A stretch of DNA of 64,000 nucleotides from Chloroflexota bacterium (GTDB taxonomy: Bacteria > Chloroflexota > Anaerolineae > Aggregatilineales > Phototrophicaceae). Below the pieces are notes generated by a model. That model searched no databases, had not been told where the DNA came from, and worked only from the letters and a program-made list of their open reading frames with translations. Both the position numbers and the translations under genes were made by a program. Within the stretch, counting starts at the first letter, position 1. Each line of letters begins with the position of its first letter. The DNA is taken from assembly GCA_028873975.1 (NCBI GenBank), contig JAPPMO010000032.1:51391-115390 (forward strand). The letters run 5' to 3'. Positions 7,304 to 42,120 of the stretch are shown here, one piece after another.

Positions 7304-8335
7304 ATGCGACTGGGACTGATGGTCGGCTATTCCGGCGCGCGCATTGATTTGCCGATGGACCTCATCCGCGAAGCGGACCGGCTGGGTTATCACGCCGTCT
7401 GGACCTCGGAAGCCTACGGGTCCGACTGCGTCAGTCCCCTGGCCTGGATCGGCGCGCTGACGGAGAACATCAAGCTGGGCACAGCCATCATGCAGATGCC
7501 GGCGCGCAGCCCGGCCATGACCGCCATGACCGCTATCACGCTCGATCAATTGTCCGGCGGGCGGGCGCTGCTGGGGCTGGGACTCTCGGGTCCCCAAGTC
7601 GTAGAAGGCTGGCATGGGCGCCCTTACGGCAAGTCCCTGGCGAAGACGCGCGAATACCTGGCGATCCTGCGGCAAATTCTGGCGCGCGAAGCGCCACTGG
7701 CGCATGAGGGCGAGCACTATCAGATTCCCTACCAAGGCGATGACGCCACCGGGTTGGGCAGGCCGCTCAAGAGCATCGTTCATGGCCGCGCCGATATGCC
7801 GATTTATCTGGCCTCGATTGGTCCCAAGAATGTCGCGCTGACCGCGGAAATCGCCGATGGCTGGCTGCCGATTTTCTTTTCGCCGGCCGCCTATGACGAT
7901 TGCTACCGCGACGCGCTGCAAGCGGGCTTTGCCAAAGCGGGAGCGGGCAAAAGCCGCGCCGATTTCGATATCGCGGCCTCGGTCACCGTAATCATCGAAG
8001 AGGACCTGGAAGCGGCCTACAACCAGATCAAGCCGGTACTGGCGCTGTATATCGGCGGCATGGGCGCCAAAGGCAAGAATTTCTATTACGATTTGGCTTG
8101 CCGCTACGGTTTCTCCGAGGCGGCGGACAGGATCCAGGAACTCTATCTGGTTGGGCGCAAGGGAGAGGCAGTGATGGCGGCGCCCGACGCACTGGCGGAC
8201 GCGGTGGCGCTGGTTGGATCAAAAGACCGTATCCGCGACCGGATTCAGCTCTGGCGGGATTGCCCGGTTGATACGCTTAACATCACGGCTTGCAGCGTCG
8301 ATACGATTCGCTTCATGGCGGAATTGCTGCTTTAG
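7304..8335 (+). CDS. Luciferase-like (LLM) flavin/F420-dependent oxidoreductase
   Basis: A 343-residue TIM-barrel oxidoreductase of the bacterial luciferase-like superfamily. The pattern [50 protein letters not shown] and [19 protein letters not shown] is typical of F420-dependent family members. ATG 7304 is chosen because GGAAGGAC precedes it and the protein then starts directly at the first beta strand. The substrate is not readable; relatives oxidise alcohols, sugar phosphates or methylene-tetrahydromethanopterin. It is followed by the dus gene after 17 nt, probably co-transcribed. No F420 biosynthesis gene is in the window, so FMN use cannot be excluded. Confidence 0.85.
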
Positions 8336-8352
8336 CCTCGTAGAGAGAAAAC

Positions 8353-27042: not shown

Positions 27043-27861
27043 CTAAAACTCAATCTCGGCAATCTGATCAAAATCCAGCCTGTAGTCTTCTTCTGCAAAC
27101 TCGTCTTCTTCATCGAGCAAGTCAAGCGAGCCCGCCTCGCCCCGTTCACAAAGCGACCGGTAGGTGCAGAAGCGGCAGCGGGTTTCGTCTTCCGTCAGCG
27201 GGAATTGCTCGGCGCGGTCAATCTCAGCGATCAAATTGAGCAAGTAATCTTCGTCTTCCCGCAATTGAGCGGCCGAATAATCAATGCCGAGGCGCTGGCC
27301 TCCCGCCGCCACGAAGCTATAAATCATGTGGATCTTCTCCGGCGGGATCGGCCCGCCGTAAAGATGCCCGCCGGCTTTCGCCAGCACATAGCGATAGAGG
27401 ATAGTCTGCAAGCGACCCTGCAAATGGCTTTGCGCGGGTACCCGGCGCCAGGTCTTCCAGTCGACGATGACCGCTTCGCCGCCCGCATCCAGCGCCAGCA
27501 GATCGTATTTGGCGATCAGGCGGCGGCCCCCCAGGCGCGTCTGCAAGGCGATTTCGGCTTGGCGCCCCTGCGGCAGCCCCGTCAAGCCCGTCTTGCGGAA
27601 GGCGCCCCACCAAGCCGCCAGTTCCGGGTCATCGTGCAGCGACCACGCCAGCGTCTCCGCCGGCAGTCCCATAAGATGCTGCTGCACCAGTTTATGGAAG
27701 CGGGCGCCTTGCCGCGTGCGCCGCTCGAACTGGAGCGCCGGCGCCGCTTCCACGGCCGGGTAGCGCAAGCGCTTGATATAGCGCAGCTCAAATCGCCGCG
27801 GGCAATCGGCCGCGTCTTGCAAGCTGCCTTGCGTGAAGGCGAAGTCATCGGGCAGGTTCAT
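27043..27861 (-). CDS. PD-(D/E)XK nuclease with Cas4/AddB-like Fe-S cysteines
   Basis: A 272-residue nuclease. Catalytic residues are D120 (KYDLLAL), D134 and K136 (VDWKTW). Four Cys (C20, C229, C232, C238) are arranged as one N-terminal plus a C-terminal CxxC-x5-C group, the pattern that binds a 4Fe-4S cluster in Cas4 and AddB. An acidic tail follows (EEDEFAEEDY). ATG 27861 is certain: its ATG overlaps the TGA of the upstream helicase as ATGA, and upstream sequence in this frame belongs to the helicase gene in another frame. It is the third gene of a helicase-helicase-nuclease operon and likely trims DNA ends as part of one complex. Confidence 0.88.
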   Translation of the reverse strand: MNLPDDFAFTQGSLQDAADCPRRFELRYIKRLRYPAVEAAPALQFERRTRQGARFHKLVQQHLMGLPAETLAWSLHDDPELAAWWGAFRKTGLTGLPQGRQAEIALQTRLGGRRLIAKYDLLALDAGGEAVIVDWKTWRRVPAQSHLQGRLQTILYRYVLAKAGGHLYGGPIPPEKIHMIYSFVAAGGQRLGIDYSAAQLREDEDYLLNLIAEIDRAEQFPLTEDETRCRFCTYRSLCERGEAGSLDLLDEEDEFAEEDYRLDFDQIAEIEF

Positions 27862-30116
27862 GGCTCTCGCGCTTGCGCGTTTCCTCTTCTCATTTCTTCT
27901 TCCCAATACGTCCGCAGCGCCAGCAAAGGCGTGGCTTCGGTCGCGTCGCCCCGGCCGGTATTCCAGGTGATGGTCAGCGCTTTGCGGGCGCGGGTGATGC
28001 CGACGTAGAGCAGCCGCAAGCGCTCGGCAGCGTATTCGACGCGGGCCTCGAGGCTGGCGAATCCCTCTTGATAATCCCCGCCGCTTCCCAAAGCCGCCAG
28101 CTGCGCCAGAGCCTCGGCGGAAAGGTTGAGATTGTCGCGGATGAACCATCTTTCGCCGATGAAAGAATCGTTCGGCTCGGCTGAAGGGAAGTCATAGTTG
28201 TTGACCGAAATGAGATAGACCCGGTCCCATTCCAGCCCCTTGGCTTTGTGCAAGGTGGTGACCGTTACCTTGCCCTGGTGCGCGTCGGGGTCAAATTGAC
28301 CTTCGTCATCGCCCAAGCCGGCGAAGCGGCGGCGATTCGCGGCAATATCGCGCAGCTCCGCGGCGAAATCCGGCAAGCGCATCCGGGGATGCGTCTCGCC
28401 CAGCCGCGCCAGGTAAAGCGCCACCATGTGCGCGGTGGCGATATCGCCAACATCTCTGAAGACATCGCCAGAGACGGTCAGGATCAATTGATCGACGGGC
28501 AGTTCCGCCGCGCGCAGCCAAGCGCCGACGCGCTCACGAAAGGCAGTCAACTGGGCATAGAGTTCAGCGTGTTCATCCGCTGACAAGCTGTCCTCGAGCC
28601 AGTCGCTCAAACGCGGCGCGACATATTCTTCGACCGCACTGATCCTGCCCAAGCCCGTCATCACGCGCTGGATAGCTGCCGCGGCCTGGGCATCGTCCTG
28701 TTCGTCGCGCCGCGCCACTTGATAGACCTTCGCCAGTTTTTTGGCGTCTTTGGGATCGGCCAGGTATTCCAGGATGAGCGCCAGGCTGCCCACTACTGCG
28801 CGCGTTGACGAGGTGGTGTTGAGGTTTTCCACGTATGGCACGCGCTTTTCGCGCAAGAATTTGACGATCTCCGAGCCGCGCGTATTGCGCGCCACCAGAA
28901 TCGCAGCCGTCTGATCGGGATGCTCTTCCAGCCAGCGCTTGCAAGATTCGGTGACCATCATCGCTTCTTTTGTCGGGCTAAAGGCTTCCGGGTACAAGAC
29001 GACCGCGGCCGGGTCATCGGGCGGGTTCGGCTGTGGATCGCCGGCCGGAGTCGGCTGAATAAAAGGCTTGCTCAGCGGGATGCGTTCGCGAATCGCGCCG
29101 TGGGGGTGTTTTAGCGACCAGGCAATCAGTTGGTTGGCCAGCTTTTGAATACTGACTGTGCTGCGCCCGGAGTTCGGCAACTCGCGCCCGACGACGCCCG
29201 GCGAGGCGATGAAAGCGCGCAGGTATTTGGGATCGGCGGTGGTGAAGGTCTCGAAGATGGCTTGATTGGGGTCGCCGACCCGCACCCAATTGCCCTTTTC
29301 CCCCGCCAGCAAGCGCAAAATGCGCTCCTGCAAGAGGCTGCTGTCTTGCGCTTCGTCTTCGAGAATGGTGCGGTATTTTCGCCGAAGCGACTCCAGATAG
29401 GCTGGGTCGCTTTTTAATACGCGCAGCGCCAGGCAAGTCAAGTCCTGGAAATCGACCGCGCCACGGTAGCGCAAGGCGCGTTCGTAATCCTCATAGATTT
29501 CGGCGCAGATGCGCGCCAAGCCCTGCTCGTTTCGTCGGTCTACTTGGTCTACTTGCTCGGCCATGCGCCGCTTCAATTCTTCCGGCGAGAGCAGATCGTC
29601 TTTCGCCCGCCGGATAAAGTCCCGCGCGGTATCTGTGAGGGTCTGCCCCCAGCGATAGACGCGATAGCCCGCGTTGTCCCGGTATTTTGGCGCAAGCCAG
29701 TCATCGGGCGCCTCGGGCGATCGCCCCATCCAGGATTCAACGGCGGATGCCAGGATCTCGTTGCTCTCGCGTTCATCCACGATGAGAAAAGCCTCGTCCA
29801 GCCCGGCGATCGTCGGCTTTTGGCGGACGATGTCATTTGCCAGCCCGTGCAACGTGCGCACGCGGTAGCCGAAACCGGGCAACAGCCCCTCGGACTTGAC
29901 ATATTCATTGATCTGCCGCGCGAAATTGGCAACGGCCGAATTGACCAGCGTGACGATCAGGATTTCTTGTCCCTCTTCCAGATCGGTCTCCGCCAGCAGC
30001 GCTGCGGCCAAGCAGGACAGCGTGGCTGTCTTGCCGCTGCCGGGCACCGCCGCCACGCCCAGGCAGCCCTGGCGATAAGCCAGCACCGCTCGCTGTTTGG
30101 GGCGGGGCTTAAACAT
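27858..30116 (-). CDS. UvrD/Rep-type SF1 helicase, AddA-like without nuclease domain
   Basis: ATP-dependent 3'-5' DNA helicase, 752 residues. Motifs: PRPKQRAVL (Q motif), VPGSGKT (Walker A, 25-30), LEDEAQDSSL (Walker B), VGDPNQAIF (motif III), TTLHKAKGLEWDRV (V) and LLYVGITRARKAL (VI). It lacks the C-terminal nuclease domain of AddA; the nuclease is the next gene, which overlaps it by ATGA. It starts 8 nt inside the end of the preceding helicase-like gene. Three overlapping genes imply stoichiometric synthesis and a complex that processes double-strand breaks. Confidence 0.9.
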   Translation of the reverse strand: MFKPRPKQRAVLAYRQGCLGVAAVPGSGKTATLSCLAAALLAETDLEEGQEILIVTLVNSAVANFARQINEYVKSEGLLPGFGYRVRTLHGLANDIVRQKPTIAGLDEAFLIVDERESNEILASAVESWMGRSPEAPDDWLAPKYRDNAGYRVYRWGQTLTDTARDFIRRAKDDLLSPEELKRRMAEQVDQVDRRNEQGLARICAEIYEDYERALRYRGAVDFQDLTCLALRVLKSDPAYLESLRRKYRTILEDEAQDSSLLQERILRLLAGEKGNWVRVGDPNQAIFETFTTADPKYLRAFIASPGVVGRELPNSGRSTVSIQKLANQLIAWSLKHPHGAIRERIPLSKPFIQPTPAGDPQPNPPDDPAAVVLYPEAFSPTKEAMMVTESCKRWLEEHPDQTAAILVARNTRGSEIVKFLREKRVPYVENLNTTSSTRAVVGSLALILEYLADPKDAKKLAKVYQVARRDEQDDAQAAAAIQRVMTGLGRISAVEEYVAPRLSDWLEDSLSADEHAELYAQLTAFRERVGAWLRAAELPVDQLILTVSGDVFRDVGDIATAHMVALYLARLGETHPRMRLPDFAAELRDIAANRRRFAGLGDDEGQFDPDAHQGKVTVTTLHKAKGLEWDRVYLISVNNYDFPSAEPNDSFIGERWFIRDNLNLSAEALAQLAALGSGGDYQEGFASLEARVEYAAERLRLLYVGITRARKALTITWNTGRGDATEATPLLALRTYWEEEMRRGNAQAREP

Positions 30117-32256
30117 GCGCTTTCCCGTTTATATTCTTCGCGGCGCTCCGCCGCAGCAAGCCATGAATCGCTTCAAGGAGCAGGCCGCGCTGTTCGTGGC
30201 CGCTCTCGCTGAGCTCGCTGTAACCCAGGTAGATCTCTTTTCGGCAGCGCCGCGTCAGCGCCAGGACAAGCCGGCCCAGCGTTTGTCGGTTCATCGCCGC
30301 CTCGTCATCATCCGTCCAGGTTCTGTCCGCGCGCCAGCCCAAGCTCAAGACATGGGGATGCGTCAATGGCTGATACAAGCGGCGCGCCCAGCCTTCGCTG
30401 CCGATGTTCAACCAGAACTGATAATCGACGGCGCGGTTGCCAAGCAGAAAGGTATAGGCGGGGGCGATCAATACGCAGTCGTCATTATCCGCGATCCAGT
30501 CGCGCAAGTAAAAATCGGCGATCACGCCGCGGTCCACCATGTCCAAATAATCCCTGCCCAGGTCCGTTTGATCTTCGTAGCGGCGCACGAACTCCAGCGA
30601 CCAGCGAAAGTTGCGCGCCGAATCCACCAGGTTCATGCTGATGTTGCCGGCGTCGCTGTTGTCGTGAAAGCCGAACCCGGGGCGCGACAAGACTTCCCCG
30701 AACAACTGACGAAAGAAAATATCAAGAGCCTCGGTGGGCGCGCCTTCAATGTAATTGTTCAGCCAGGTCTGCAGGCGGTCGTAACGAGCGCCCAGTTCGT
30801 AGGTGATGCGGTCTTGCATCGCTTCCGATTTAACATCGGAAAAAGGCAAGAGCCGTCCGCCTCGGTATAGCATTTCCGTCAAGAGCTTGGCGCGGATCAG
30901 GTCCAGACCGTCGATGGCCGTCATCACTGCAAATGCGACGTCGAACTCGGCGGGCGTCATAGACCAGCGCGGGTGGGCCAGGCGAGCGAAGGTCAAGAGC
31001 GCGCGGGCAGCCGGTTCATCGCGCAGCGCCCGCGACGGTCGGTGAGAGCGCGCTCTGATATCACGAGCCATCAAGCCTTCGACCAAGGCAAAGCGCAGTA
31101 CATCGGACATGAATGGCGCCATCACCACGATCTCCCGCGGCGATACGCCCTGACGATTGACGAGTTCATCAATGCGATCGGCAGCCCAGTCCACCATCTG
31201 TGGATGATAGCGATGCGCCTCCGTTATCAACGAGGGCTGCGGGTCGTCTTCGGCGCTCTCGTCAAGCCCGGTAACAAATGGCGCGCCCAATTGACCCGCC
31301 AGCGCTCGTCCCAGGGCGCGGCCTGCAACGGACATGACTTTGCTGTCGGCGAACTGCGCCTGACTATCGCACAAGTCTTGCAGCCCGCGAGCGTTTTCGG
31401 GGTCAGCGCCCAGGAAACGGCGAAAGCCGGCATCGCTGTCGTAGATGACCAGCGCCGACTGACACATGCGCAGCAGGTCGGCCAGAATACGGTGCGAGGC
31501 GGGGTTGTCCTCTTCCACGTTGTCCACGATCAGATGTCGGTAACGCCTCCTGACATGCGCGCGGGCTTGCGGCAAGTTCCAAACCTGATCCAGAAACACC
31601 TCCAGCTGCAAGGAGAAATCGAGCAAGTTATTGGCCAGGCAGTATTGGCGGAATTCCAAAGCGCAGGTCTGCGCGTCATCGTAGATATGTCCCTGTTCAA
31701 CGCCGCCGGGCAGCGCGGATTTTAGCCGCGGCGCGATCTGCTCGATCCGGAAGCCCACCACCGCCGCCTTGTTCATGTTGTCGACAATTTGACTATACAG
31801 CCTGGCGCGCTCAATGCGCACGCTATTGAAATAGTCCCGCTGGTTGACCAGCGGCTCAATGACCTTGGTCATAAAATACTGCACCGATTCCAGGCTGAGG
31901 AAGTTGGGCAGATCCTGGGGATGGCCGAAGCCAGCCCGCTCGGCGATCAAGAACCAGAAGGCTTCCACCATTTGCAGGGAGAGACCCCCGATGGTCTGAA
32001 CCGCGACCTGCCCGCCGCTGTAGCCCGAATGCTGTCGCAAAGCCTGAAGATAGGGCTGCGCCAGCGAGCGCTGCGGCACATAAATCAGGATTGATTCCGC
32101 CGGTATGCCCTGCTCCAGCAGGCGCAGCAAGCGCCCGATGCCGGCGCTGGTTTTACCACTGCCGGCGATGCCTTCCAGCCAGATTTTCCTGTCCGGCGCC
32201 GCCGCCGCGATGGCCGCCTGTTCCGCTGTCAATGGGATCTGCAATTTCGCGCTCAA
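30109..32256 (-). CDS. SF1 helicase-like ATPase with altered motif II
   Basis: A 715-residue protein with an SF1 layout: Walker A EGIAGSGKT (28-36), ILIYVPQRSL (motif Ia), HLIVDNVEEDNP (motif II, 241-252), and LVLALTRRCRKEIYLGYSEL (motif VI) near the C-terminus. Motif II reads DNVEE instead of DEAQD/DEFQD: the first Asp is kept but the catalytic Glu position is Asn, so ATP hydrolysis may be weak. This recalls AddB and RecC-like subunits that keep a helicase fold as a scaffold. First gene of the three-gene operon; the upstream 443 nt carry a MITE-like element and probably the promoter. Confidence 0.75.
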   Translation of the reverse strand: MSAKLQIPLTAEQAAIAAAAPDRKIWLEGIAGSGKTSAGIGRLLRLLEQGIPAESILIYVPQRSLAQPYLQALRQHSGYSGGQVAVQTIGGLSLQMVEAFWFLIAERAGFGHPQDLPNFLSLESVQYFMTKVIEPLVNQRDYFNSVRIERARLYSQIVDNMNKAAVVGFRIEQIAPRLKSALPGGVEQGHIYDDAQTCALEFRQYCLANNLLDFSLQLEVFLDQVWNLPQARAHVRRRYRHLIVDNVEEDNPASHRILADLLRMCQSALVIYDSDAGFRRFLGADPENARGLQDLCDSQAQFADSKVMSVAGRALGRALAGQLGAPFVTGLDESAEDDPQPSLITEAHRYHPQMVDWAADRIDELVNRQGVSPREIVVMAPFMSDVLRFALVEGLMARDIRARSHRPSRALRDEPAARALLTFARLAHPRWSMTPAEFDVAFAVMTAIDGLDLIRAKLLTEMLYRGGRLLPFSDVKSEAMQDRITYELGARYDRLQTWLNNYIEGAPTEALDIFFRQLFGEVLSRPGFGFHDNSDAGNISMNLVDSARNFRWSLEFVRRYEDQTDLGRDYLDMVDRGVIADFYLRDWIADNDDCVLIAPAYTFLLGNRAVDYQFWLNIGSEGWARRLYQPLTHPHVLSLGWRADRTWTDDDEAAMNRQTLGRLVLALTRRCRKEIYLGYSELSESGHEQRGLLLEAIHGLLRRSAAKNINGKAHV

Positions 32257-32347
32257 CCTTCGTTTCCCGGTTTCCGTTCGTCGTCAGGAAGATTATAAAG
32301 CGCCGCCAGTTCAAAGGCGATAATCTCTCTCGCAATATGCGCCAGCA

Positions 32348-32482
32348 GGGCAGAGCAATCGCATAAATAAGCACGCACTGCAATGACATTAAATCAAAAA
32401 ACTTGACCACCGAGGACACCGAGGGAAACGTTTGAGCGGTGTTCTCGGTGCAAAAGAAAATTCTGGTTCGATTGCTCTGGCC
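32348..32482. repeat. MITE-like element with nested inverted repeats
   Basis: Outer ends GGGCAGAGCAATCG (32348-32361) and CGATTGCTCTGGCC (32469-32482) are inverted with 13 of 14 matches. Inner arms CACCGAGGACACCG (32408-32421) and CGGTGTTCTCGGTG (32437-32450) match 13 of 14. 135 bp and no ORF. Other copies are at 7133, 21374, 46045 and 63978. Confidence 0.7.
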
Positions 32483-32650
32483 AAGACCTGCGAGGCTACA
32501 CAGAACCTTGCTCCGATGATAAGATACAGGCTGCAGCAGGACAGTTTCCATAATATTATATTCACATTTATAAACCATTTGTTGAAAGAGTCTAACCCGA
32601 AACCGTCCAATTCAAATCCGCCCAGATATTGCATCCCGATTCAACCTGCG

Positions 32651-32674
32651 CTATAGTGATATAGTATCTATACT
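32651..32674. promoter_or_regulatory. Two overlapping inverted repeats upstream of the winged-helix gene
   Basis: CTATA-GTGA-TATAG (32651-32664) overlaps AGTAT-CT-ATACT (32663-32674). Both contain -10-like hexamers (TATAGT, TATACT). They end 25 nt before the ATG at 32700, the expected place for an autoregulatory operator. Confidence 0.5.
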
Positions 32675-32699
32675 GTTGAAATTGAGAGAAGAGCGCCCC

Positions 32700-32969
32700 A
32701 TGGCGCAAGATCATCGTCCACGCTCCGAAACTCGTCAGATGATGATAGAGGTGGTCGCCAAGAGCGAAAAGCCTCTCACGCGGTCGGAAATCGCCAATCG
32801 GGTGCAACGGAAGAAGACGCCGCATTTGGTCAATATGATGGACTCCTTGGTCGAAGAAGGCATCTTCGCGCGCAGCATCATTACCTTTAACAATGGCGTA
32901 ACGGGATACGTTTATTCAATCGCTGGTTCGCGCTCGGCTGTCGCTGGCCGCGCCTTCGCACGGGCATAG
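32700..32969 (+). CDS. Small winged-helix DNA-binding protein
   Basis: An 89-residue protein. EVVAKSEKPLTRSEIANRVQ and KTPHLVNMMDSLVEEGIFAR form a helix-turn-helix plus wing typical of MarR/ArsR-size regulators, and ITFNNGVTGYVYSI forms the wing strands. The start is set by GAGAGAAG upstream of ATG 32700; an in-frame TTG lies at 32676. It is first in a co-directional set with parA (73 nt later) and parB. The inverted repeats just upstream suggest autoregulation. A role as copy-control or partition regulator is inference from position. Confidence 0.7.
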   Translation: MAQDHRPRSETRQMMIEVVAKSEKPLTRSEIANRVQRKKTPHLVNMMDSLVEEGIFARSIITFNNGVTGYVYSIAGSRSAVAGRAFARA

Positions 32970-33042
32970 ACACGCATACACTCATAGTCATTCTGTGCGC
33001 TTCGCCAAGTCGCGAGCGCGATTATCAACAGGTATCAGGCTT

Positions 33043-33840
33043 ATGAAGATTATCACCCTACTCAATGAAAAGGGCGGGGTTGGCAAGACGACAGTCGCGA
33101 CGCATATCGCCGCGGGTTTGGCGATCCGCGGCAAGCGCGTGATCTTGGTGGATGCGGACCCGCAGGGCCACGCCACCATCGCCTTTGGTCTGGTCAAGGA
33201 ACCCGGCTTTTATGACTTAATAGTTCGTAACGCCCCTTTCCAGCAGGTGCTGCGTCCGGTGCCGCCCGAACGATTTAACCTGCCAGACGAAGCGCATAAT
33301 ACGCGCGGGCAGCTGTTGATGGTCCCGTCCAATATTGAAACGCGCAGCATCGCCGGCAATATCTCCGACGCCTTTACCGTCTTGAAGCGCTTTACTCAAT
33401 TGCGCAACGCCATCGATTTTGTCATATTCGATACCTCGCCCACCCCGTCGCTTTTGCATTCCTCCATCTACATGGCGACGGATGGCATCATCTATCCCAC
33501 GAAATGCGAAGCCTGGAGCTTTGACGGCTTGCGCGAGAGCTTAACGCATAAGGATCAGTTCACCCCGATCCGTCAACAATACAATCTGAATGACATCAAG
33601 GTCCTGGGCGTCGTGCCGACCATGTATCGCGGACGAACGCTGGAGCACCAGGACAACTTGCGCCGCCTGCAGGATACCTTTGGCGAACTGGTCTGGAAGC
33701 CGCTGCCCGTTCGCACAATCTGGGCTGAAGTAGCCAGCGCGCGCCGCACGGTGTTCTCGCTAGCACCGACTACAACCACAGCCGATGACGCCTGGTCGCT
33801 GGTCGACCAGTTGGAAGGACGCATCTATGAGCAGTCGTGA
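33043..33840 (+). CDS. parA: ParA-family partition ATPase
   Basis: Deviant Walker ATPase of 265 residues. The Walker A motif is KGGVGKTT (residues 10-17) with the signature Lys, followed by LVDADPQGHAT (switch I) and FVIFDTSPTPSLL (Walker B / switch II region). It moves ParB-DNA complexes along the nucleoid. ATG 33043 removes an upstream extension without homology and places the Walker motif normally. It overlaps parB by 14 nt. No N-terminal HTH is present, so it is a type Ib or chromosomal-type ParA; autoregulation would then fall to ParB or to the winged-helix protein. Confidence 0.9.
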   Translation: MKIITLLNEKGGVGKTTVATHIAAGLAIRGKRVILVDADPQGHATIAFGLVKEPGFYDLIVRNAPFQQVLRPVPPERFNLPDEAHNTRGQLLMVPSNIETRSIAGNISDAFTVLKRFTQLRNAIDFVIFDTSPTPSLLHSSIYMATDGIIYPTKCEAWSFDGLRESLTHKDQFTPIRQQYNLNDIKVLGVVPTMYRGRTLEHQDNLRRLQDTFGELVWKPLPVRTIWAEVASARRTVFSLAPTTTTADDAWSLVDQLEGRIYEQS

Positions 33841-35056
33841 ACGGCGCAGAAAAATCCAAGACGAAGAGAATCTTTTATACGCGAATCCCAACACGCTAGA
33901 CCCCAAAACAGCGGACGCTATTGGGTTCGGTTTGGGCGAACTGGCAATGGAGATCGCCGCGGCTGACAGCGAGTATCAAGCCATAGAAGCCATTAGCATC
34001 GAGGATATCCAGCCCAACGCCATGCAGCCGCGCCATAGCGTTCCCCATGACTTGACCGACATTTACCCGCTGAGGCCCGACAACATAGTCGACATCTTCG
34101 AGCGCTGGATCATTGAAGTGCAATTGGAGAAATCGCAGAACGACTTTGATGTCACAAACTACCTGCTGGGGGAGACGACAGAGCGGGGAGATCGAGCGGA
34201 AAAAGACGAGAGCGACGGCGGCGCCAGCCTGGCTTTGGCCGCTTCCACAAAAGAAGACGCCTTGATGAAACTCGTTGATCTGGCCGCCAGCATCCGGCGC
34301 GACGGCTTGTCTAATCCAGTCAGCCTCGTCCATCATGGCGACCGCTACGAGATCGAAACCGGGGAGAGGCGCTGGCTGGCTTATCACATGCTCTATTGGA
34401 AATTCGGCGACGGCGACCTCCGCTCGGATGGATCGCGGGTGAACTGGTCGCGCATTCCAGCGCGCCTCGTTAATCGGGTGGATGTTTGGCGGCAAGCGAG
34501 CGAGAACAATGCGCGCGATAATCTCAACGCCATCAGCCGCGCCCGCCAGCTCGCCGTGCTTTTAATGGACCTCCACGGCTGGGGGAACTTCACCGCCTAT
34601 AAGGAATGTGAGAACGAACAAGCCTTTTACGCCCAGGTCGCGGATGGCGCTCGCTGGCGCATCCCCCGCGGTCAAGGCGAGCGCTTGCTAAACGCCATGG
34701 GGATGACAGAGGCCAGTCAGTTGCGGCAGTATCGCGCGCTGCTGCGTTTGCCGGAAGAGCTTTGGCGCAAGGGGGACGACGAGAACCTCAGCGAAGGCGA
34801 ATTGCGCAAGATGAAATCCGCCCTGGCAACCGTTACACGTGTAACGAAATCATCCGCCGGCCAGCGCAAGAAAGACGTCGTCAGCCGCCTGGCTGTCGAC
34901 GCTGGACAATGGCGCAAGCGCCTGCGCAAAGAAATCTCCTCCCCAAGCGCCGACGCCCGCCCCAAACTCCGCCGCCTCATCGAAGGCGAGATCCGTCAGT
35001 TGCTGCGCTTGATGACAGAACTGGACGAATCCGAAGCCACAGTTCACTCCGCTTAA
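33827..35056 (+). CDS. parB: ParB-family partition protein with a long insertion
   Basis: 409 residues. ParB core motifs are present: IEDIQPNAMQPR (59-70), LAASIRRDGLSNPVSL (153-168), GERRWLAYHML (179-189, CTP-binding box) and ENNARDNLNAISRARQLA (226-243). Between the first two lies an insertion of about 70 residues (76-148) that is acidic and low-complexity in part (GDRAEKDESDGGAS). A basic linker and a helical C-terminus follow. GGAAGGA precedes ATG 33827, which overlaps parA by 14 nt. A 16-bp palindrome resembling parS lies inside the gene (34831-34846). It is expected to bind this site and spread; the binding itself is inferred. Confidence 0.85.
   Translation: MSSRERRRKIQDEENLLYANPNTLDPKTADAIGFGLGELAMEIAAADSEYQAIEAISIEDIQPNAMQPRHSVPHDLTDIYPLRPDNIVDIFERWIIEVQLEKSQNDFDVTNYLLGETTERGDRAEKDESDGGASLALAASTKEDALMKLVDLAASIRRDGLSNPVSLVHHGDRYEIETGERRWLAYHMLYWKFGDGDLRSDGSRVNWSRIPARLVNRVDVWRQASENNARDNLNAISRARQLAVLLMDLHGWGNFTAYKECENEQAFYAQVADGARWRIPRGQGERLLNAMGMTEASQLRQYRALLRLPEELWRKGDDENLSEGELRKMKSALATVTRVTKSSAGQRKKDVVSRLAVDAGQWRKRLRKEISSPSADARPKLRRLIEGEIRQLLRLMTELDESEATVHSA
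34831..34846. promoter_or_regulatory. Candidate parS site, copy 1 (inside parB)
   Basis: The perfect 16-bp palindrome CGTTACACGTGTAACG. The general bacterial parS TGTTTCACGTGAAACA differs at four positions, two per half-site. An identical 16-mer is at 36487-36502. In parB it encodes TVTRV. Confidence 0.65.
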
Positions 35057-35100
35057 ACGCGACAGAAGATCCTTAATCCAAAATAGCAACAATTCGCCCG

Positions 35101-35240
35101 GGGCGACTCCGTGAGTCGCCCGATATCCGTTTAGTTTCTACTCGGCGGGCGTTTCGCTGAAACGCCCCTACCGGGTAATTTAATTCAGAAACGGTAGGGG
35201 CGACCGACTCGCAGTGTCTGCGCGCGACGGCGGGTCGCCC
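35101..35240. repeat. Cluster of REP-like hairpins downstream of parB
   Basis: Three hairpins in series: GGGCGACTC-CGT-GAGTCGCCC (35101-35121), GGGCGTTTC-GCT-GAAACGCCC (35147-35167), and a longer-loop pair GGGGCGACC / GGGTCGCCC (about 35196-35240). The block 35113-35172 is nearly the same as 50190-50250. They could act as terminators for parB. Confidence 0.65.
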
Positions 35241-35284
35241 GAATTCACTAAAATAAATCAGAAATTGCCGAGAAATCATAACCC

Positions 35285-36286
35285 ACGCCTTATGTGAAAT
35301 GAATTGAGTGTTGAAAGGTTTGAACATCAATTTGCTCTGCTGTTCGTAGAATACGCTTAAACAGATGAGCGGTGACTTTTGCGCTCAGTCGGGCTGCCAA
35401 GCCATCGACTGTCTTCGCTAGCAGGCGTTCCAAGTTGCGTCCCGTGTTCTGTAGTTCATGAAAGAGACCTTCAATCCGCCGGCGCATCCGATTGAGCAAA
35501 GCATCATAGCCCGGTGGGTTCTGAAGTGTCTGATTCTTTCGCTTTGGGGTGAGAATCCGATTGCCGGTCTGCTCCAGCATCTGAGCTTGCCACTCGATTC
35601 CAATAAAGCCCTTGTCGCCAATCAGCACGGCGTTTTTGAGATAATCCAGCACCGGTTCCGCCGCTGCGCGCTCGTCAATATTGGCTGCTACCAGATCGTA
35701 GGCAACGGGGATTCCTTCCAAGGTGGCTACCATCACCAGCTTATAGCCGAAATAGTGCAGTTTGCGGCTGGCGCAATATCCGTAGTCGGCGCTGCCGAGA
35801 AAATCGCTGCGCCGCTTAGAGCGCTTATAGCCCAAGACTGGGACTGGCTTGGTATCGATCAACAATTTTCCTGCTTGCTCAATGCCCAAATCGATCATCC
35901 AATCGCGGCGCATCCATTCCAGTAGGCGATACAATCGGCGCGCGCGCCGATTGAATTGGCTTTGGCTCAAGAGATCGGGGAACAAGTCGCTATGATTGGC
36001 GCGGATATACCCCAGATACTGGCTCTCGGATGCAAATGGAAGGTATTCAGCTCCCAGCATCAAAGTCAGCATCTCGCTATCGCTGAACTTGGGTTTGCGT
36101 CCGGCTGTCGTTGTCAAGAATCGCTGCCCCTTCGTAAGATACCAATCGTCAATTTTAACAAAGAGGGTGGTAAACAAAGTCTCAATATCTATACTGGTCA
36201 TTGGGCTGTCCCTCCACATGGTTTTTTGTGCAACTTCCATTATGGAGATCAGCCCATTTCTGGCAAATCTATTTCACATAAGACGT
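35285..36286 (-). mobile_element. IS982-type insertion sequence, apparently intact
   Basis: 1002 bp. The terminal inverted repeats ACGCCTTATGTGAAAT (35285-35300) and ATTTCACATAAGACGT (36271-36286) match 15 of 16. AACCC flanks both sides (35280-35284 and 36287-36291), a likely target duplication. One transposase gene fills it. The intact ORF and clear ends suggest recent insertion between parB and the second parS-like site. Confidence 0.85.
35290..36201 (-). CDS. IS982-family DDE transposase
   Basis: 303 residues from ATG 36201, which has GGAGGG 8 nt upstream; an in-frame ATG 13 codons earlier is less likely. The DDE residues are D in LIDTKPVPV, D in VLIGDKGFIGIEW and E in RRRIEGLFHELQNTGRNLERL. 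The N-terminal KFSDSEMLTLMLGAEYL and the SQSQFNRRARRLYRLL region are typical of IS982. No frameshift or internal stop. The gene ends 5 nt inside the left inverted repeat. Confidence 0.9.
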   Translation of the reverse strand: MTSIDIETLFTTLFVKIDDWYLTKGQRFLTTTAGRKPKFSDSEMLTLMLGAEYLPFASESQYLGYIRANHSDLFPDLLSQSQFNRRARRLYRLLEWMRRDWMIDLGIEQAGKLLIDTKPVPVLGYKRSKRRSDFLGSADYGYCASRKLHYFGYKLVMVATLEGIPVAYDLVAANIDERAAAEPVLDYLKNAVLIGDKGFIGIEWQAQMLEQTGNRILTPKRKNQTLQNPPGYDALLNRMRRRIEGLFHELQNTGRNLERLLAKTVDGLAARLSAKVTAHLFKRILRTAEQIDVQTFQHSIHFT

Positions 36287-36564
36287 AACCCATCAAAAAC
36301 CTGTCCTGTCCCGCGACTCACGGGGGAAGTACCTCGAATCATCCGGGTAGGGCGACGCGACATTTTATATGGAATGTCCTGCAACATTCGCATCATTAAC
36401 TTGATTCTTCAGACTGCCAGGTGGGTGCCGCTGCATATCAAGCAAATGAAGATACATTGGTTTCCAGTCCCAACGCAAAAAAATACCGTTACACGTGTAA
36501 CGGTACGCTCAGGCTGCTATGCCTCGTCCAAAGGCACAATGAAACTCGCAAGCCCGCTAACCCT
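36287..36564. other. Non-coding gap with the second parS-like palindrome
   Basis: The gap lies between the right IS end and the stop of the prim-pol gene. Apart from the palindrome at 36484-36505 I see no ORF with a start signal. Before the IS inserted, this would have been contiguous with the REP cluster after parB. Confidence 0.55.
36484..36505. promoter_or_regulatory. Candidate parS site, copy 2
   Basis: A perfect 22-bp palindrome whose central 16 bp CGTTACACGTGTAACG are identical to copy 1 in parB; the arms are extended by TAC and GTA. It lies 1.65 kb from copy 1 and 60 nt downstream of the prim-pol stop codon. Confidence 0.7.
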
Positions 36565-38589
36565 TTATACTTCCGCAGCGCGCATGAGCAATTCCATTGC
36601 CCGTGGCGCCTCTCCCAAACGCAGCGCTCGCTTGGCAAAGGCATACAAGAGCTCGCCAGGTCCCTCAAATGAGGCCAAATATACATTACCTTCACCGAAC
36701 TGCTTCAGCATGCGATAGGCGATCCCGCGCTTGACGGGCCGCTCAACCCGCCGGCCATCACGATCATAAGCCAGCAAGTAGCCCCGGATCGTCTCCGCGA
36801 TCTTGTCCGGCGCGATCTGCCTCGCAACCGATTCAAAGAACAAGGGCAGCCGCTCGGCGCGCGCCCCAGGCGCCCGCCGCTTAACAAAGTCAACAAGCGC
36901 ATCAATCGCCCTATCCAATCGACCATCCGCACTTCCCGCCTCGCGAAACGCTCGCGCGCTCACGAAACTCGCGACGCTCATTTTCTCATATTCGACCCGG
37001 CTCTCCTCGCCAGACATGACATACCGGGACGGACGCCGCATACAAATCTTTACATCGCCGCTCCCAGCCTTGAGCAGCCACGATCCAATATGCCGCCAAG
37101 CCGGGAATCGCCGACCATCGCCCAATTCCAGCCAGTATCCGTTGGTGGAGTTCTTCACATCCGCCCGCCGGCGCTTGGGCAAACTATTCAATACCCCCCG
37201 CGTGAGCAGGCAGGCGCCGATTTTCTCCACAACAGACACGTCCAGCTCGCGGTTGTAGCGCGCAATCGTGCGAGCACTCACTGCGATCCGCTTGGCCAAC
37301 CAGCTTTTGGGGACTTCCGGCGACAATCGCTTCAGATATTCCCGGTGCAGCGCAAGGCGATAGGAATGCGCGGACTTTATGTCCTCTCCGCTGATCTTGT
37401 CAGACGGAGACCAGGTCAATCCCAGTTGCCGCACAAGACCGGCAATAGCGGGCGCCTGATACAGGATCTGAGGGGGTCTGCCGCGACGTCGTGATTTAAG
37501 TCCCCTGTTGTCCAGGTATTCTACATATCTTCTCCGTATGATATATCGCCCGTCGTACACCGAGGCCTCTCCACCCAGCGCGTCGAGCACGCTCTTCCGA
37601 TTCAGCCCAAAACGCGCCGCGGCGCTTATCGCCTCCCCCAACGTAAACCATTGTCCCTCGCGCCACTTCGCCAAGCGAAACACCTCGAGCAAGCGAATCA
37701 AGACCGTCGACCGCTGCTTCTGCAAGAGAAACTCTCGCAGCGAGTTCGGTATCCCCGAACCATAAGCGGAACTGCCATAGCCTTTCTTGAACGCGCTCGC
37801 TATCGTGCGCACAGCTTCACTCAGCCGACTCTCCGGACTCTCCGCCCGCATCCCAGCCCTGTCCGCCTCCCATACATGCGCTTGCCCGAGCAAAGCGACG
37901 ACATCCCTCTCGCCAAGGCCTTCATCCCGAGCGACCGAAGCGCAGCGATAGAGAGCGTTATTACGCCCCAACTGCTTAGCCAGGCGCTTATACAAAGAGA
38001 CGAGATCCGTTTTCTCTTGACCCTCGCCCCTCGGCGCCGCTACTCGCGCCCCCGCGGGTCCGCTCTGCAAATAATTCAATACCTCATAGAGCTCTTCCCG
38101 CGGCAGCTCCAGCGGAGAGAATTCCTTTACTTCTCGATACTGGAAAGCGCCGATTTGCGACGGCGGCGCGACGACGTAGGAACGTTCGCCTTTGATATCT
38201 CCACCGACAAACTGATGGCTCGGCACCTTCCGCTCGGTACGAAAGTAGAGATGAAAGCCTCTATTCGTCTTAACAGTATAAGTCGCGACATGCTGCGGGA
38301 AACGGCGGCAGAACTTTCGATACCGCAGGTGATCGTCAAAGTCGATCACCAAAAGTCGCGATACGCTCCCGCATACGATGCCCAAGGCGCTGGCGTCATC
38401 AGGAAACATTGATTCAATTTCCGCTGGCGAGGGGATGCGCTTTTGGAACTTCCGCCACTTGATCGCTGGCTTCTTCGGTTGTTCTGGCAGACTGTTCCCA
38501 TGTACCGGGATAACAGAATATCCAGCCATTGCCAACTGTTTCGCTCTTTTTATCAGTCTTTTGACGAAGGAAAACATCGTTTTTCCCAT
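36565..38589 (-). CDS. Prim-pol (bifunctional primase/polymerase) domain replication protein
   Basis: 674 residues. The N-terminal domain is an archaeo-eukaryotic-type prim-pol: AGYSVIPV and KKPAIKW at its start, VIDFDD (metal DxD, 83-85), NRGFHLYFR (H113) and GGDIKGERSYVVAPPS (D131), all intact. Such proteins prime or copy plasmid, phage and integrative-element DNA. No Walker A helicase domain follows, unlike many relatives; the rest is basic, with an HTH-like segment at about 427-450 (PKSWLAKRIAVSARTIARYNREL) that could bind an origin. ATG 38589 or 38577 may be the start; neither has a strong ribosome site. It points toward the par genes, with a structured 594-bp region upstream. Confidence 0.8.
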   Translation of the reverse strand: MGKTMFSFVKRLIKRAKQLAMAGYSVIPVHGNSLPEQPKKPAIKWRKFQKRIPSPAEIESMFPDDASALGIVCGSVSRLLVIDFDDHLRYRKFCRRFPQHVATYTVKTNRGFHLYFRTERKVPSHQFVGGDIKGERSYVVAPPSQIGAFQYREVKEFSPLELPREELYEVLNYLQSGPAGARVAAPRGEGQEKTDLVSLYKRLAKQLGRNNALYRCASVARDEGLGERDVVALLGQAHVWEADRAGMRAESPESRLSEAVRTIASAFKKGYGSSAYGSGIPNSLREFLLQKQRSTVLIRLLEVFRLAKWREGQWFTLGEAISAAARFGLNRKSVLDALGGEASVYDGRYIIRRRYVEYLDNRGLKSRRRGRPPQILYQAPAIAGLVRQLGLTWSPSDKISGEDIKSAHSYRLALHREYLKRLSPEVPKSWLAKRIAVSARTIARYNRELDVSVVEKIGACLLTRGVLNSLPKRRRADVKNSTNGYWLELGDGRRFPAWRHIGSWLLKAGSGDVKICMRRPSRYVMSGEESRVEYEKMSVASFVSARAFREAGSADGRLDRAIDALVDFVKRRAPGARAERLPLFFESVARQIAPDKIAETIRGYLLAYDRDGRRVERPVKRGIAYRMLKQFGEGNVYLASFEGPGELLYAFAKRALRLGEAPRAMELLMRAAEV

Positions 38590-39183
38590 GAAATAGACCC
38601 CAATTTTGTCAGCGAAAACCTTGAGGAACCGCCAAAAAATCTGTCATGGTAAATAGCTAACAGGGAGCTTTAATAACATAAAGCGCCTGCGGAAAAGCCA
38701 GTGGTCGTCAACTGCGCATACCCTGTGCGGCCGGTCGATCCAGCGAATCCGGCCTGCCAAACTGTCGGTGCTTATTGGGTAAAAGGCGGCCGCCTCTTCT
38801 CACTTTAGTACCGCTAATCCTGCACGATTTTTCAGGAAAAAATTCCAGAACAAGTTCAGGCAAATTGAATACGTTTCATCCCGATTTAAGGACGAAACGC
38901 AGCCGATTATATGCTGGACTATCGGCAGGATTTTATGATTTTTGATGTCCCTGCTGGCGCAGAGATTTCAATTTATCGAGCTTCGCGCTCGTTTTTTGTT
39001 TCGCTCAGTACCCGCAACCAGTTTACAGCAGGCACAGCCCCGTCGCAACTGATTCTTTGAAAATCCCTACGAATATGCTTAAATCGACAGTGAGGCCAAT
39101 TTAAGCCCATGCAATAGAACAAACTAGCTAGAATCGGTTCTGTTCTTGCTCGCCCCTTTAGCCACCCCGGAGAAGCAGAGGCA
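38590..39183. other. 594-bp structured non-coding region upstream of prim-pol
   Basis: No supported ORF. Dyads: GGCCGG/CCGGCC (38729-38754, 14-nt loop), CGTTTCATCC/GGACGAAACG (38872-38899, 9 of 10), GCCGAT/ATCGGC (38902-38926), and a terminator-like CGAGC/GCTCG with TTTTTT (38977-38997). The middle is A+T-richer than the flanking genes. It lies between two divergent genes. It may be a replication origin for the prim-pol protein, or an unrecognised structured RNA ending at the terminator. Confidence 0.5.
38977..38997 (+). terminator. Short terminator-like hairpin with T6
   Basis: CGAGC-TTCGC-GCTCG followed directly by TTTTTT on the plus strand. No annotated plus-strand gene ends here, so a short transcript from 38.6-38.97 kb would be its natural client. 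Confidence 0.5.
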
Positions 39184-42120
39184 ATGAAGATCACTTTTCT
39201 CGGAGGAGCCGACGAAGTTGGCGCCAGCTGCGCCTTGGTCGAGCTTGCCGGCAAGCAATTGCTGGTTGATGCCGGCATCCGCATTTCGCCACGCTCCAGC
39301 CGCGGTATCCAGAACAGCCAGTTGCCGGATCTACAGCCGATCACTGCCATTGGCGGACCGGACTTCGTTCTGGTCACGCATGCCCATACCGATCACACCG
39401 GCGCCTTGCCTTTGGTCATGGAGCAATATCCGCAGGCTCCTGTTCTGGCTACGGCGGCCACACAGGCGCTCACGCGCGTCCTCCAGTTGGATGCGCAACG
39501 GATCATGAAGACTCGCCAGGATGAAGAGGGCGAGCTGCCGCTCTTCGATGTCATTGCCGTTCAACGCTTGCTAGACGCCTTCCAGACGGTCGAATTCAAC
39601 AAGCCGGTCAAACTGTCGGAGAACCTGCAGGTTACATATTACACGGCGGGTCACATTGCTGGCGCGGCTGTCATCGTGTTGGAAAGCAGCGAAGGCGTCT
39701 TGGTGTTTTCCGGGGACATTTCCAAATCCGAACAGCGCACGGTTAAAAGCGTTGCGGTGCCTCCGGTCAAGGCCGACGCATTGATTCTGGAAAGCACATA
39801 CGGCGGTCGCTTGCATGCCAACCGCGTGGGCGAAGAAAAGCGATTGATACAGACATTACGGACAGTTACGGAGCGCGGCGGCAAAGTACTGATTCCCGCT
39901 TTTGCCCTGGGGCGAGCCCAGGAGGTGATTCAAATTCTGCTCGCTCATGCCGATGAACTGGAAGTCCCGGTCTATGTCGACGGCATGGTGCGCACGGTCT
40001 GCGATGCCTATCAGAGCTTCGGCGATATCCTGCCACGATCGGCTGCTCGTATAGCGAGCAAGAACCATCTTTTCTTTCGCGGGAATATACGTCCCATAGG
40101 CAACAGTCAGGAAAGGCAGGCGGTCGCGCTCAGCGAGGGACCTTTGGTTGTGGTCGCCAGCAGCGGCATGCTGACCGGGGGCGCGTCTGTGTTCTACGCC
40201 CGCCATTTTGCGCCAGGGGAAGCGAATGCGATTCTGATGACCGGCTATCAAGACGAAGAGGCGCCTGGGCGCTTCTTGCAGCGTTTGATGCGAGAGCGGC
40301 AGCGGGGTGAATCGCCATCGCTGAGATTAGGCGACGCGACCGTAAAAGTACGCTGCGAGATCGATACCTATTCGCTCTCGGCGCACGCGGACGAGTCGGA
40401 GTTGCTGAGCTTTGCCGAGGCGCTGAAAGCCGATGACATCATGTTGGTGCACGGGGATGCGGCTGCTCGACATAGTTTGGCTACGGCGCTTCGACAACGG
40501 GGAAGGTCAGTCGCCACACCTCGCATCGGCCAGACCAAGACTTTGATTTACAGACCACGACCCTGGTCTGTTGGCCCTGTGAGAAGCGGCGCTGAAGTCG
40601 ACTCGGTGAATTTGCGCCGCCTCTGGGAATCGCTCAAGACTCGGGCTGGCGATCATTTCAGTTTGCGCGAGTTGTCGCAGGTCTGGTGGGGCGCGTCCGA
40701 GCGCGAAGATGAACTCGAGGCAGCCCTGCAGAGCGACAAGAACTTCTATTTCGTAGCGGACTGGCGCGACAAGAAGTCATACCAGGTCAAAACGACCGAG
40801 CAGGTGCAACGGTCGCTAGCCAGCCGCGCGATCATGCTGGCGAATCCCGACCTGGTCGGGAAACTGATTGTGATGCGCAACAGCAATGGGCAAATCAGAC
40901 TCGCGGTAGTCATCAGCGCCGAAATAGACAGCTTCACGGCTATTGTCCATCAGCAGCGCGGGACTCGTCATCCCGGGGACGCCTTGCTCTGGGTGATCGG
41001 CGAATGGACCAAAGGACGGAGCGACAAGAGCGCGCGCTCTCGTCTGTCGGGCTTGATGAAGCGCGCTCGCGGACTCAAGGACCGTCTGCTGCCCTTTAGC
41101 CGCCGCGAGGAGCTTGCGCGGGCCGGGAAGCCCGTTTTGCCGGAGGCGTTGCTGCCAGATCCATTGCCCGAAGATGTGGACAGGGCGCTCGCGCTGATCG
41201 CAATTGTGCTAGCCTTGGGGGAGGACGCCGCTACTTTGGAAACGGACGGCTTGCTGCCCCATCGCGCCCTGAGCCAGGGACCGATGGACCAAAACGAAGC
41301 GCGAGAGCTGGCGATTCGGCTGCTGCCGGCGGAATCGCGCCTGCGCAAGGTGGGGATGGAAATCCATCGCAAGCGTCTGACGCTCACCTTTGATTTTCCC
41401 GAGACGGCGCAAAGACGTTTTGCCGAACAGATAGAGCGACTCGGCGCGGAATCCGGCTGGCAGATTCAAGTGAAGCCGACCACGAATCAACTGGCGCTGG
41501 GCACCGTGGCCGAAGAAATTTTCCCCGAAGGGACCACTGTCAAGAAAGGTCCAGCCTATTTTACCGACAAGCGACAAGTGCATTATGATTTGCTGAATAT
41601 CAGCGAGCGGCAATCGTCTGAATTAAGAGAGCGGTTCCGGGAAATTACCGGCTTCGACCTGGTTATCAGCAACATTGGCGACGCGCAGGACCCGGCCGGC
41701 GAAGCGGCTCTCGCGCCGGCAAATGTCGAACGGATGGAGATCAATGCCGCCTACGGGCTAATTCGCGCGCGCCTTAAAGGATGCGGCTTGGGAAAAACCA
41801 GCCTAAAACAGGGTCAAATTGTTCTTGGATTCGTCTCTCCGCAGGTGGGCCAGCGTCACCAGGAGCGGATCAATCAATTGGCGGAAGAAACCGGCTACAA
41901 CTTGGTCATCAGCCCGCACCCCAATCAGTACGAGATCTTGCGAGTCGCCAATCGGCTAATTGCCGAGAACAACTGGATGATCGCCAAAGGACCGGGCATC
42001 CATGACGATCGGGGCGAGCTGCGGCTGGAATTCGCAAAACCAGTTCCCGCGGCGGAGATAGAGTCATTTAGCGAAAAGCTGGAGGCGCAAACGGGCTTCA
42101 AGCTGGCTGTTCAATCCTAG
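39184..42120 (+). CDS. Beta-CASP metallo-beta-lactamase nuclease with long repetitive C-terminus
   Basis: 978 residues. The N-terminal 460 form an RNA-processing nuclease of the CPSF/RNase J group: VTHAHTDHTG (HxHxDH), AGHIAGAA, FSGDISK, then the beta-CASP motifs LILESTYGGR, ASSGMLTGG, YSLSAHADESEL and LVHGD. The second half is unusual: related segments about 80-90 residues long recur near the end, each pairing an E-x-x-G-(W/Y)-x-(I/L)-x-(V/I)-x-P helix-strand unit (SGWQIQVKPTTNQ; TGYNLVISPHPNQ) with a closing TGFDLVIS or TGFKLAVQ. They may bind RNA. GGAGAAGCAGAGGCA precedes the ATG. The gene is monocistronic and its substrate unknown; RNA decay or processing is the best guess. Confidence 0.82.
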   Translation: MKITFLGGADEVGASCALVELAGKQLLVDAGIRISPRSSRGIQNSQLPDLQPITAIGGPDFVLVTHAHTDHTGALPLVMEQYPQAPVLATAATQALTRVLQLDAQRIMKTRQDEEGELPLFDVIAVQRLLDAFQTVEFNKPVKLSENLQVTYYTAGHIAGAAVIVLESSEGVLVFSGDISKSEQRTVKSVAVPPVKADALILESTYGGRLHANRVGEEKRLIQTLRTVTERGGKVLIPAFALGRAQEVIQILLAHADELEVPVYVDGMVRTVCDAYQSFGDILPRSAARIASKNHLFFRGNIRPIGNSQERQAVALSEGPLVVVASSGMLTGGASVFYARHFAPGEANAILMTGYQDEEAPGRFLQRLMRERQRGESPSLRLGDATVKVRCEIDTYSLSAHADESELLSFAEALKADDIMLVHGDAAARHSLATALRQRGRSVATPRIGQTKTLIYRPRPWSVGPVRSGAEVDSVNLRRLWESLKTRAGDHFSLRELSQVWWGASEREDELEAALQSDKNFYFVADWRDKKSYQVKTTEQVQRSLASRAIMLANPDLVGKLIVMRNSNGQIRLAVVISAEIDSFTAIVHQQRGTRHPGDALLWVIGEWTKGRSDKSARSRLSGLMKRARGLKDRLLPFSRREELARAGKPVLPEALLPDPLPEDVDRALALIAIVLALGEDAATLETDGLLPHRALSQGPMDQNEARELAIRLLPAESRLRKVGMEIHRKRLTLTFDFPETAQRRFAEQIERLGAESGWQIQVKPTTNQLALGTVAEEIFPEGTTVKKGPAYFTDKRQVHYDLLNISERQSSELRERFREITGFDLVISNIGDAQDPAGEAALAPANVERMEINAAYGLIRARLKGCGLGKTSLKQGQIVLGFVSPQVGQRHQERINQLAEETGYNLVISPHPNQYEILRVANRLIAENNWMIAKGPGIHDDRGELRLEFAKPVPAAEIESFSEKLEAQTGFKLAVQS

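Follow-up and report, generated by a model that had tools for sequence, protein, structure and literature searches.

ParB proteins of the Spo0J/Noc type work with parS sites in chromosomal ParABS partition systems, ORF904 of plasmid pRN1 has a helicase part beside its primase-polymerase (prim-pol) domain, and integrative suppression in E. coli frees dnaA mutants from DnaA by means of a second initiator. Here we analyse a 64,000-nt stretch of DNA (the window) from a Chloroflexota (Anaerolineae) genome, G000, an assembly of 4.46 Mb in 119 contigs, in which genes for ParA and ParB and two parS-like palindromes lie beside an opposing prim-pol gene. We consider it very likely that this block is the resident chromosomal ParABS locus of its genus, stably linked to the primase-polymerase; its identity as a chromosomal ParABS system, taken alone, we hold to be a shade firmer. 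The genus, a group of uncultured bacteria, mostly lacks dnaA, the gene through which bacterial replication is normally initiated, a condition for which the cyanobacteria Cyanobacterium and Geminocystis provide a described parallel; according to passages of a 2020 paper (PMC7198777), no free-living dnaA-less species had been reported outside the cyanobacteria, the other cases being symbionts, parasites and organelles.

ParA (33043-33840, + strand; 265 aa) has the features of a Walker-type ATPase, namely a match to PF13614 (8.8e-30) and the motif KGGVGKTT (MKIITLLNEKGGVGKTT). The start of parB overlaps the end of parA, and the 409-aa ParB (33827-35056, + strand) bears the GERR motif and matches the N-terminal domain PF02195 at 5e-8, with partial coverage of the model. 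This motif recurs in 13 of 13 ParBs, G178-E179-R180-R181 being invariant across their alignment (A1, from which the ParB of locus L049 was left out). A six-frame search of G000 gave a single ParB_N match, to this ParB, which falls below the Pfam cut-off in that search and above it when the whole protein is used.

The two parS-like sites are identical copies of the 16-mer CGTTACACGTGTAACG, one within parB (34831-34846) and the other between parB and the prim-pol gene (36487-36502). They are the sole matches in the window at up to 3 mismatches (0.14 expected; none of 100 shuffles reached two). Mapping of further copies across the genome, as the original prediction had proposed, found none within 2 mismatches beyond these two in the whole assembly, where the reversed-pattern control was uninformative (it also reads 2/2). 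The core GTTNCACGTGNAAC occurs in 18 of 25 genus genomes, at two sites in G000 and one in each of the 17 others; its reversed control gave none in 22 of the 25, including G000, and one in each of three. A search with GTTACACGTGTAAC at up to 3 mismatches gave two sites at the locus in every one of 23 congeners: the copy inside parB matches exactly in 17 and otherwise with 1 mismatch, and the copy behind parB carries 1-2 mismatches in 22 and 3 in G001. Thirteen control loci (L056, L058-L069) gave two matches in total, both at 3 mismatches and so near the level of chance. The arms, CGTTAC and GTAACG, are better conserved than the centre, and the pattern CGTTAC-N4-GTAACG was found at the locus alone in 975 kb of four contigs (in G012 a single site fits it strictly) and not at all in 400 kb sampled from a relative.

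The copy inside parB offers a further line of evidence in that it encodes VTRVT with nearly fixed codons (GTT in 23/23, ACA in 22/23, CGT in 18/22, GTA in 23/23 and ACG in 23/23). Codons 335-339 form the most synonymously constrained five-codon window of parB, with a mean majority-codon fraction of 0.955 as compared to 0.806 for the next best non-overlapping window and a median of 0.61 for single columns (156 columns), which we take as selection at the level of DNA. That the palindromes arose by chance is ruled out by the shuffles, the reversed control, the conservation among congeners and this codon constraint.

The 265-aa ParA, the GERR-bearing ParB and a conserved palindrome that includes GTTnCACGTGnAAC (18 of 25 genus genomes) all resemble chromosomal ParABS systems of the Spo0J/Noc type. 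Unlike those systems, this locus has two sites, both at parAB and one within parB itself; the outer bases of the site are C..G rather than the T..A of canonical parS; the arms are kept more than the centre; and the locus is linked to a prim-pol gene. By analogy with the ParABS family, ParB would load on the two sites via its CTP-binding GERR domain and then spread, and ParA would move the ParB-DNA complex using ATP. A small protein encoded upstream of parA (32700-32969, + strand) might regulate the operon through the motif GTATCTATACTGT (32664-32676, + strand), a putative operator in the promoter region of these genes. The pattern TATACAGTATA, picked by eye, lies upstream of parA in 29 of 29 genomes at up to 2 mismatches, and also in the gap upstream of the prim-pol gene in 24 of the 29 (one of them weak), G000 not being among the latter. 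The original prediction had called the small upstream gene a winged-helix gene: the open reading frame (ORF) stands, with a match that starts near the ATG at 32700 in most congeners, and its winged helix-turn-helix (wHTH) identity is plausible, not proven, from a weak, sub-threshold Pfam match.

The remainder of the inventory in the original prediction (parA, parB, two 16-mers, an insertion sequence (IS), an opposing prim-pol gene and a 594-bp gap) was found as described, and its picture of a partition-plus-primase module within apparently chromosomal DNA is borne out. Its proposal that the block is an inserted or domesticated replicon was not supported by comparison with the genus. A ParB of at least 60% identity, hereafter the primary ParB, is present in 32 of 34 genus genomes, and of the 25 genus genomes searched first ParB and prim-pol were each found in 24, on a common contig in each; in G014 the locus is split, with parB spread over two contigs, the UvrD-like genes on one and prim-pol together with the Sulf gene on the other. 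Flanks were compared at 22 loci selected for having ParB, and both were the same in 20, a contig end cutting one side in the other two. The SDR and AcAc genes lie on the prim-pol side in 22 of 22 loci, accompanied by the Sulf gene wherever the fetched stretch extends, and a UvrD-like gene lies on the opposite side in 20 of 22. No genome with an empty site, its flanks directly adjoining, was seen in a comparison that covered block-bearing genomes (G013 is without the UvrD-like flank, and the flanks of G045 lay outside it). Identities within the genus are 82-98% for ParA and 62-93% for the UvrD-like flank proteins. A recent insertion is accordingly rejected by this synteny together with the wider occurrence of the module.

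That wider occurrence was seen in a scan of named genomes, in which 79 loci were kept out of 98 matches, all but one from records titled Chloroflexi, Chloroflexota or an Anaerolineae group. Of 36 ParB loci outside the genus (L158-L204, 11 second copies of the genus excluded), 18 carry prim-pol, mostly directly behind parB, and many of the other 18 are short stretches or are without prim-pol. Three loci (L180, L199 and L200) also carry relatives of the beta-CASP nuclease that flanks the locus in the window (48-58%) and of the wHTH protein (40-51%, on the strand opposite parA), neighbours that the other outgroup loci do not have; this arrangement argues for an old chromosomal linkage. ParB and prim-pol thus occur together in the genus and in other Anaerolineae, a pairing that the original prediction had suggested looking for. 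At the level of sequence comparison, the gene content, the synteny, the two conserved parS-like sites and the association of ParA, ParB and prim-pol beyond the genus are all established.

Several observations weigh against reading the block as the resident ParABS locus. The primary ParB is lacking from G013 and G045; incompleteness could be the reason (87% and 94% complete, respectively), and a real loss is possible. G013 is also without prim-pol and the UvrD-like flank. The Pfam scan of ParB found no curated helix-turn-helix domain, and the Pfam match that it does have is partial. Site 2 is exact in none of the 23 congeners, and its copy in G001 stands at 3 mismatches, a level prone to chance. 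The genus genomes are all draft metagenome-assembled genomes (MAGs). Finally, a second ParAB, with 45-49% ParB identity, lies elsewhere in 13 of the 34 genomes. The original prediction had reasoned that the same block at the same place in every relative, as its only ParABS system, would mark it as simply the chromosomal partition locus; the first part largely holds (32/34 genomes, 20/22 loci), G000 itself has the one ParB_N match, and the second ParAB of those 13 genomes speaks against the last. This second ParAB (L058-L064, L247, L250) has an RsfS-like ORF, assigned by eye, as its neighbour in 8 of the 9 loci inspected; a comparison of perfect 14-mer palindromes by their inner 12 bases found none common to 3 or more of the 9. 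It is present in 6 of 6 genomes with dnaA and in 7 of 28 without, a link not relied on here (only 3 independent pairs; sign test, median p 0.5).

The 674-aa primase-polymerase (36565-38589, - strand) matches PF09250 at 1e-18. In an alignment of 35 relatives (A3), D83, D85 and H113 are invariant and D131 is kept in at least 90%, and these four we take to be the catalytic residues. An AlphaFold model (mean predicted local distance difference test score 81.0, predicted template-modelling score 0.51) matches a single structure at E below 0.001, namely the pRN1 ORF904 prim-pol domain (Foldseek 2.6e-6; template-modelling score 0.58 on the target), followed by primase RepB' at E 0.014, and the sequence profile agrees on ORF904. 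The likeness to ORF904 thus covers the fold of the N-terminal domain and the presumed catalytic residues. Unlike ORF904, the protein is in a chromosomal context and has no recognised helicase: helicase Pfam domains were absent from 11 of 11 prim-pols scanned, and the C-terminal half gave no confident match (PriCT-1 matched two outgroup prim-pols weakly, below threshold). Outside the close clade its identity is 48-51%, as compared to 82-93% for ParA, so that it is among the fastest-evolving proteins here. More tentatively than the partition steps above, prim-pol might prime synthesis at initiation sites or forks and so support DnaA-independent replication.

The replication role suspected in the original prediction gained weight because the genus is mostly without DnaA. 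The DnaA domain PF00308 is strong in 6 of the 34 genus genomes, and 28, including G000, are without DnaA; PF08299 was found in 3 of 25 genus genomes versus 16 of 16 genomes from other genera of the order. In a sample of the class, DnaA is present in 356 of 396 genomes, in 2 of 11 from this genus and in 17 of 17 family members sampled from other genera (20 unmatched genomes of the class sample are unlisted; rows are ordered by kinship, and no family member is among the matchless rows shown). Where dnaA is kept, it is flanked by a 124-aa and a 962-aa gene (G002, G005, G023, G047 and G048) or adjoins the 124-aa gene (G042). The 962-aa gene is present in all 34 genomes. In 27 of the 28 genomes without dnaA (19 + 8), both neighbours lie in order on one contig with 234-651 bp between alignment ends, and no dnaA match at E 0.001 was found in these 27 intervals; that of G022 is unreadable, with nothing upstream of the 962-aa gene, and it stands outside both the 27 and the 33-row tree described below. 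The window's own genome offers a clean example of the absence (contig C73, 77000-89500; L215).

Repeats go with the gene. In 6 of 6 dnaA-bearing genomes the 1 kb upstream of the gene contains at least four TTATCCCAA sites (up to 1 mismatch); in the 27 gaps without dnaA there are none in 26 and a single one-mismatch copy in one. The repeat, spotted by eye in G023 and then counted, is a putative DnaA box, absent at the same tolerance upstream of dnaA in 6 of 6 relatives from the order. The E. coli-type box TTATCCACA (up to 1 mismatch) was not found in any of 22 intervals searched. The reading frames of the six DnaA proteins are free of internal stops, and their identities of 66-95% parallel those of the 962-aa gene (70-95% to G023), as vertical descent would predict. 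A quick tree of five neighbouring proteins (33 rows, no bootstrap; G042 is a long, half-filled row) has marked branches that require the dnaA state to have changed at least three times, and with G042 as outgroup it fits repeated loss, regain within the genus being a conceivable alternative. Taken together, these results make it nearly certain to us that dnaA has genuinely been lost from most of the genus; the box-like repeats are lost alongside it. All 34 genomes do have a weaker two-domain protein of the DnaA-type AAA class (521 aa), which we considered as a replacement DnaA and rejected; in G000 (contig C67; L235) the tandem two-AAA protein lies near a DnaB-like helicase ORF and a DnaD-like ORF, both named by eye, and from these neighbours we read it as a helicase loader.

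The genus resembles the dnaA-less cyanobacteria, as passages of PMC7198777 describe them, in the absence of dnaA, in apparently more than one loss and in relatives that keep the gene. It differs in belonging to another phylum, in probably being sponge-associated where those are free-living, and in an intact dnaA interval with a clean absence. The prefixes COS, RHO, CAR and APA of its MAGs fit the sponges Coscinoderma, Rhopaloeides, Carteriospongia and Aplysina named in parts of PMC8163846, so that many of these MAGs are probably from sponges and members of the genus may be symbionts rather than free-living. Genome sizes run from 3.2 to 4.9 Mb (one bin, 8.5 Mb). Such sizes, the mixture of six genomes with dnaA and 28 without in one genus, and an interval in which the absence can be read are what stand out here, and through comparison of sister species they allow one to test what takes the place of DnaA and in which order dnaA, oriC and partition loci disappear. 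Among the literature matches listed (titles and starts of abstracts, with subscription journals mostly outside their scope) there was no report of dnaA loss in Chloroflexota, and the word dnaA is absent from the main text of PMC6306507 on sponge Chloroflexi.

How such chromosomes start replication may be answered in several ways. The answer that we rank first, at slightly short of an even chance, is that DnaA-free replication starts from several or unfixed sites, the locus serving only in partition and prim-pol helping at damaged or stalled forks. In keeping with this, skew in 20-kb windows flips sign repeatedly in G012, G008 and the dnaA-bearing G023, while in the one-contig relative G363 (samples at 280-kb steps) it is coherent over megabases; irregular skew with or without dnaA is also described for one cyanobacterial clade in passages of PMC7198777. 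These contrasts set only three contigs of 240-320 kb against a genome sampled once per 280 kb and thus compare different scales; rearrangements could also scramble skew. That prim-pol is needed for DnaA-free replication at all we regard as rather more doubtful.

Alternatively, prim-pol and ParABS might together form an initiation and partition unit, a substitute origin that made DnaA-oriC dispensable and allowed dnaA to be lost several times. The locus, with the structured RNA predicted beside it, would then be the chromosomal origin, and the genus a case of natural integrative suppression in which a primase-polymerase replaces the DnaA-directed start. The likeness to E. coli is that a second initiator makes DnaA dispensable; the difference is that there it is a laboratory phenomenon and here a hypothesis only. 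Such an origin would suit a locus that 32 of 34 genomes retain in a genus where 28 lack dnaA, with at least three changes of dnaA state and a prim-pol whose nearest solved fold belongs to a plasmid replication protein, pRN1 ORF904. In 4 of 4 contigs, moreover, the raw cumulative skew dips or reaches a low at the locus. At fourfold sites, however, the switch within 20 kb is present in G012 and G023, weak in G008 and reversed in G000, and it is gone at 80 kb in G000, G023 and G008. The look at skew proposed in the original prediction hence gave a local raw low and a mixed picture at fourfold sites; as the strand on which prim-pol lies may itself contribute to the raw low, we do not accept skew as proof of an origin. 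The want of a recognised helicase domain, the fast evolution of prim-pol and the presence of the module in other Anaerolineae genera, in a class sample mostly with DnaA, further tell against a substitute origin, which we consider unlikely and place below unfixed or multiple initiation.

In G363 (L255-L274) dnaA lies at about 1 kb, and the sign of the skew changes near 0.6-0.84 Mb and 3.8 Mb; the origin of that species may lie away from dnaA. A ParB relative is also encoded there (L256, 280001-300000 of its contig C1, at 7398-8708; E 1.9e-44), with no prim-pol in the 20-kb stretch.

As to the nature of the replicon, the block might be the origin region of a vertically inherited chromid, and drafts do not reveal replicon structure; no evidence of a second replicon was seen, and the family member G363 is one 5.6-Mb contig (though not shown to carry the locus), which leaves this reading highly improbable. 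A recently integrated or domesticated plasmid replicon is scarcely credible: its gene types are usual on plasmids, one IS copy lies inside the block and related ParBs were found on ten IMG/VR contigs (30-55% identity), but the synteny across the genus and occurrence beyond it contradict a recent event, ParB had no match in plasmid and phage collections, and the IS was found in G000 alone. The module may nevertheless have been mobile in the deeper past, given those ten contigs. Prim-pol gave partial matches to 3 plasmid and 15 phage records (30-35% among the matches listed), and neither integrase nor relaxase was among 8 proteins of the locus region that were domain-scanned, no search having been aimed at them or at attachment sites. 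An assembly or binning artefact behind the missing dnaA is equally remote, for although the genomes are MAGs of 83-97% completeness, the 27 readable intervals run through without the gene, and dnaA is absent from 28 of 34 genomes here versus 7 of 223 high-quality genomes outside the genus (216 have it, as computed from the tally).

The IS belongs to the IS982 family (35285-36286, - strand); a 5-bp direct repeat, AACCC, bounds it on either side, and its transposase ORF lies at 35290-36240 (- strand; NF033520, 3.8e-55). The congener loci compared gave no tblastn match to it, and the gap between parB and prim-pol is shorter than the IS in 28 of 28 other genomes, these lengths being inaccurate in rows where the ParB match runs beyond the stop; the insertion is seen at this place in the window's genome alone. 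In G048 the primary ParB is found on two contigs (C16 and C11), each copy 76% identical to that of the window, from either a strain mixture or a duplication.

On the wHTH/parAB side the window has two UvrD-like helicase genes (30109-32256 and 27858-30116). On the prim-pol side lies the 978-aa beta-CASP nuclease gene (39184-42120), which adjoins prim-pol in the window, G008, G016, G020, G021, L155 and L153 (the last two taken as G049 and G042); the remaining genus genomes searched gave weak matches only. The nuclease has a long C-terminal extension, and its best NCBIfam models, archaeal aCPSF1 and a type VII CRISPR nuclease, are both below cut-off.

Between prim-pol and this nuclease gene is the 594-bp gap (38590-39183), in which a candidate structured non-coding RNA (approximately 38660-38810, + strand, directed away from prim-pol) has hairpins common to many congeners, together with a promoter-like sequence and a terminator-like hairpin, both judged by eye. 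Rfam (E up to 1) gave one chance-level match in 32000-39400 and none for the candidate. Changes on both sides of a pair were seen at 6 of 8 predicted pairs in alignment A2 (25 loci; G003, G007, G022 and G041 left out) and at 4 of 20 in A4 (15 hand-chosen loci of those 25, with changed ends), a modest covariation obtained without a shuffle control; in G007, G041 and G022 the region aligned poorly. Further along the gap, at 38885-39010, a CCCTACTGGCGCAGGG-type hairpin and a terminator-like sequence, AGCGAG..CTCGTTTTTT, are common to part of the genus.

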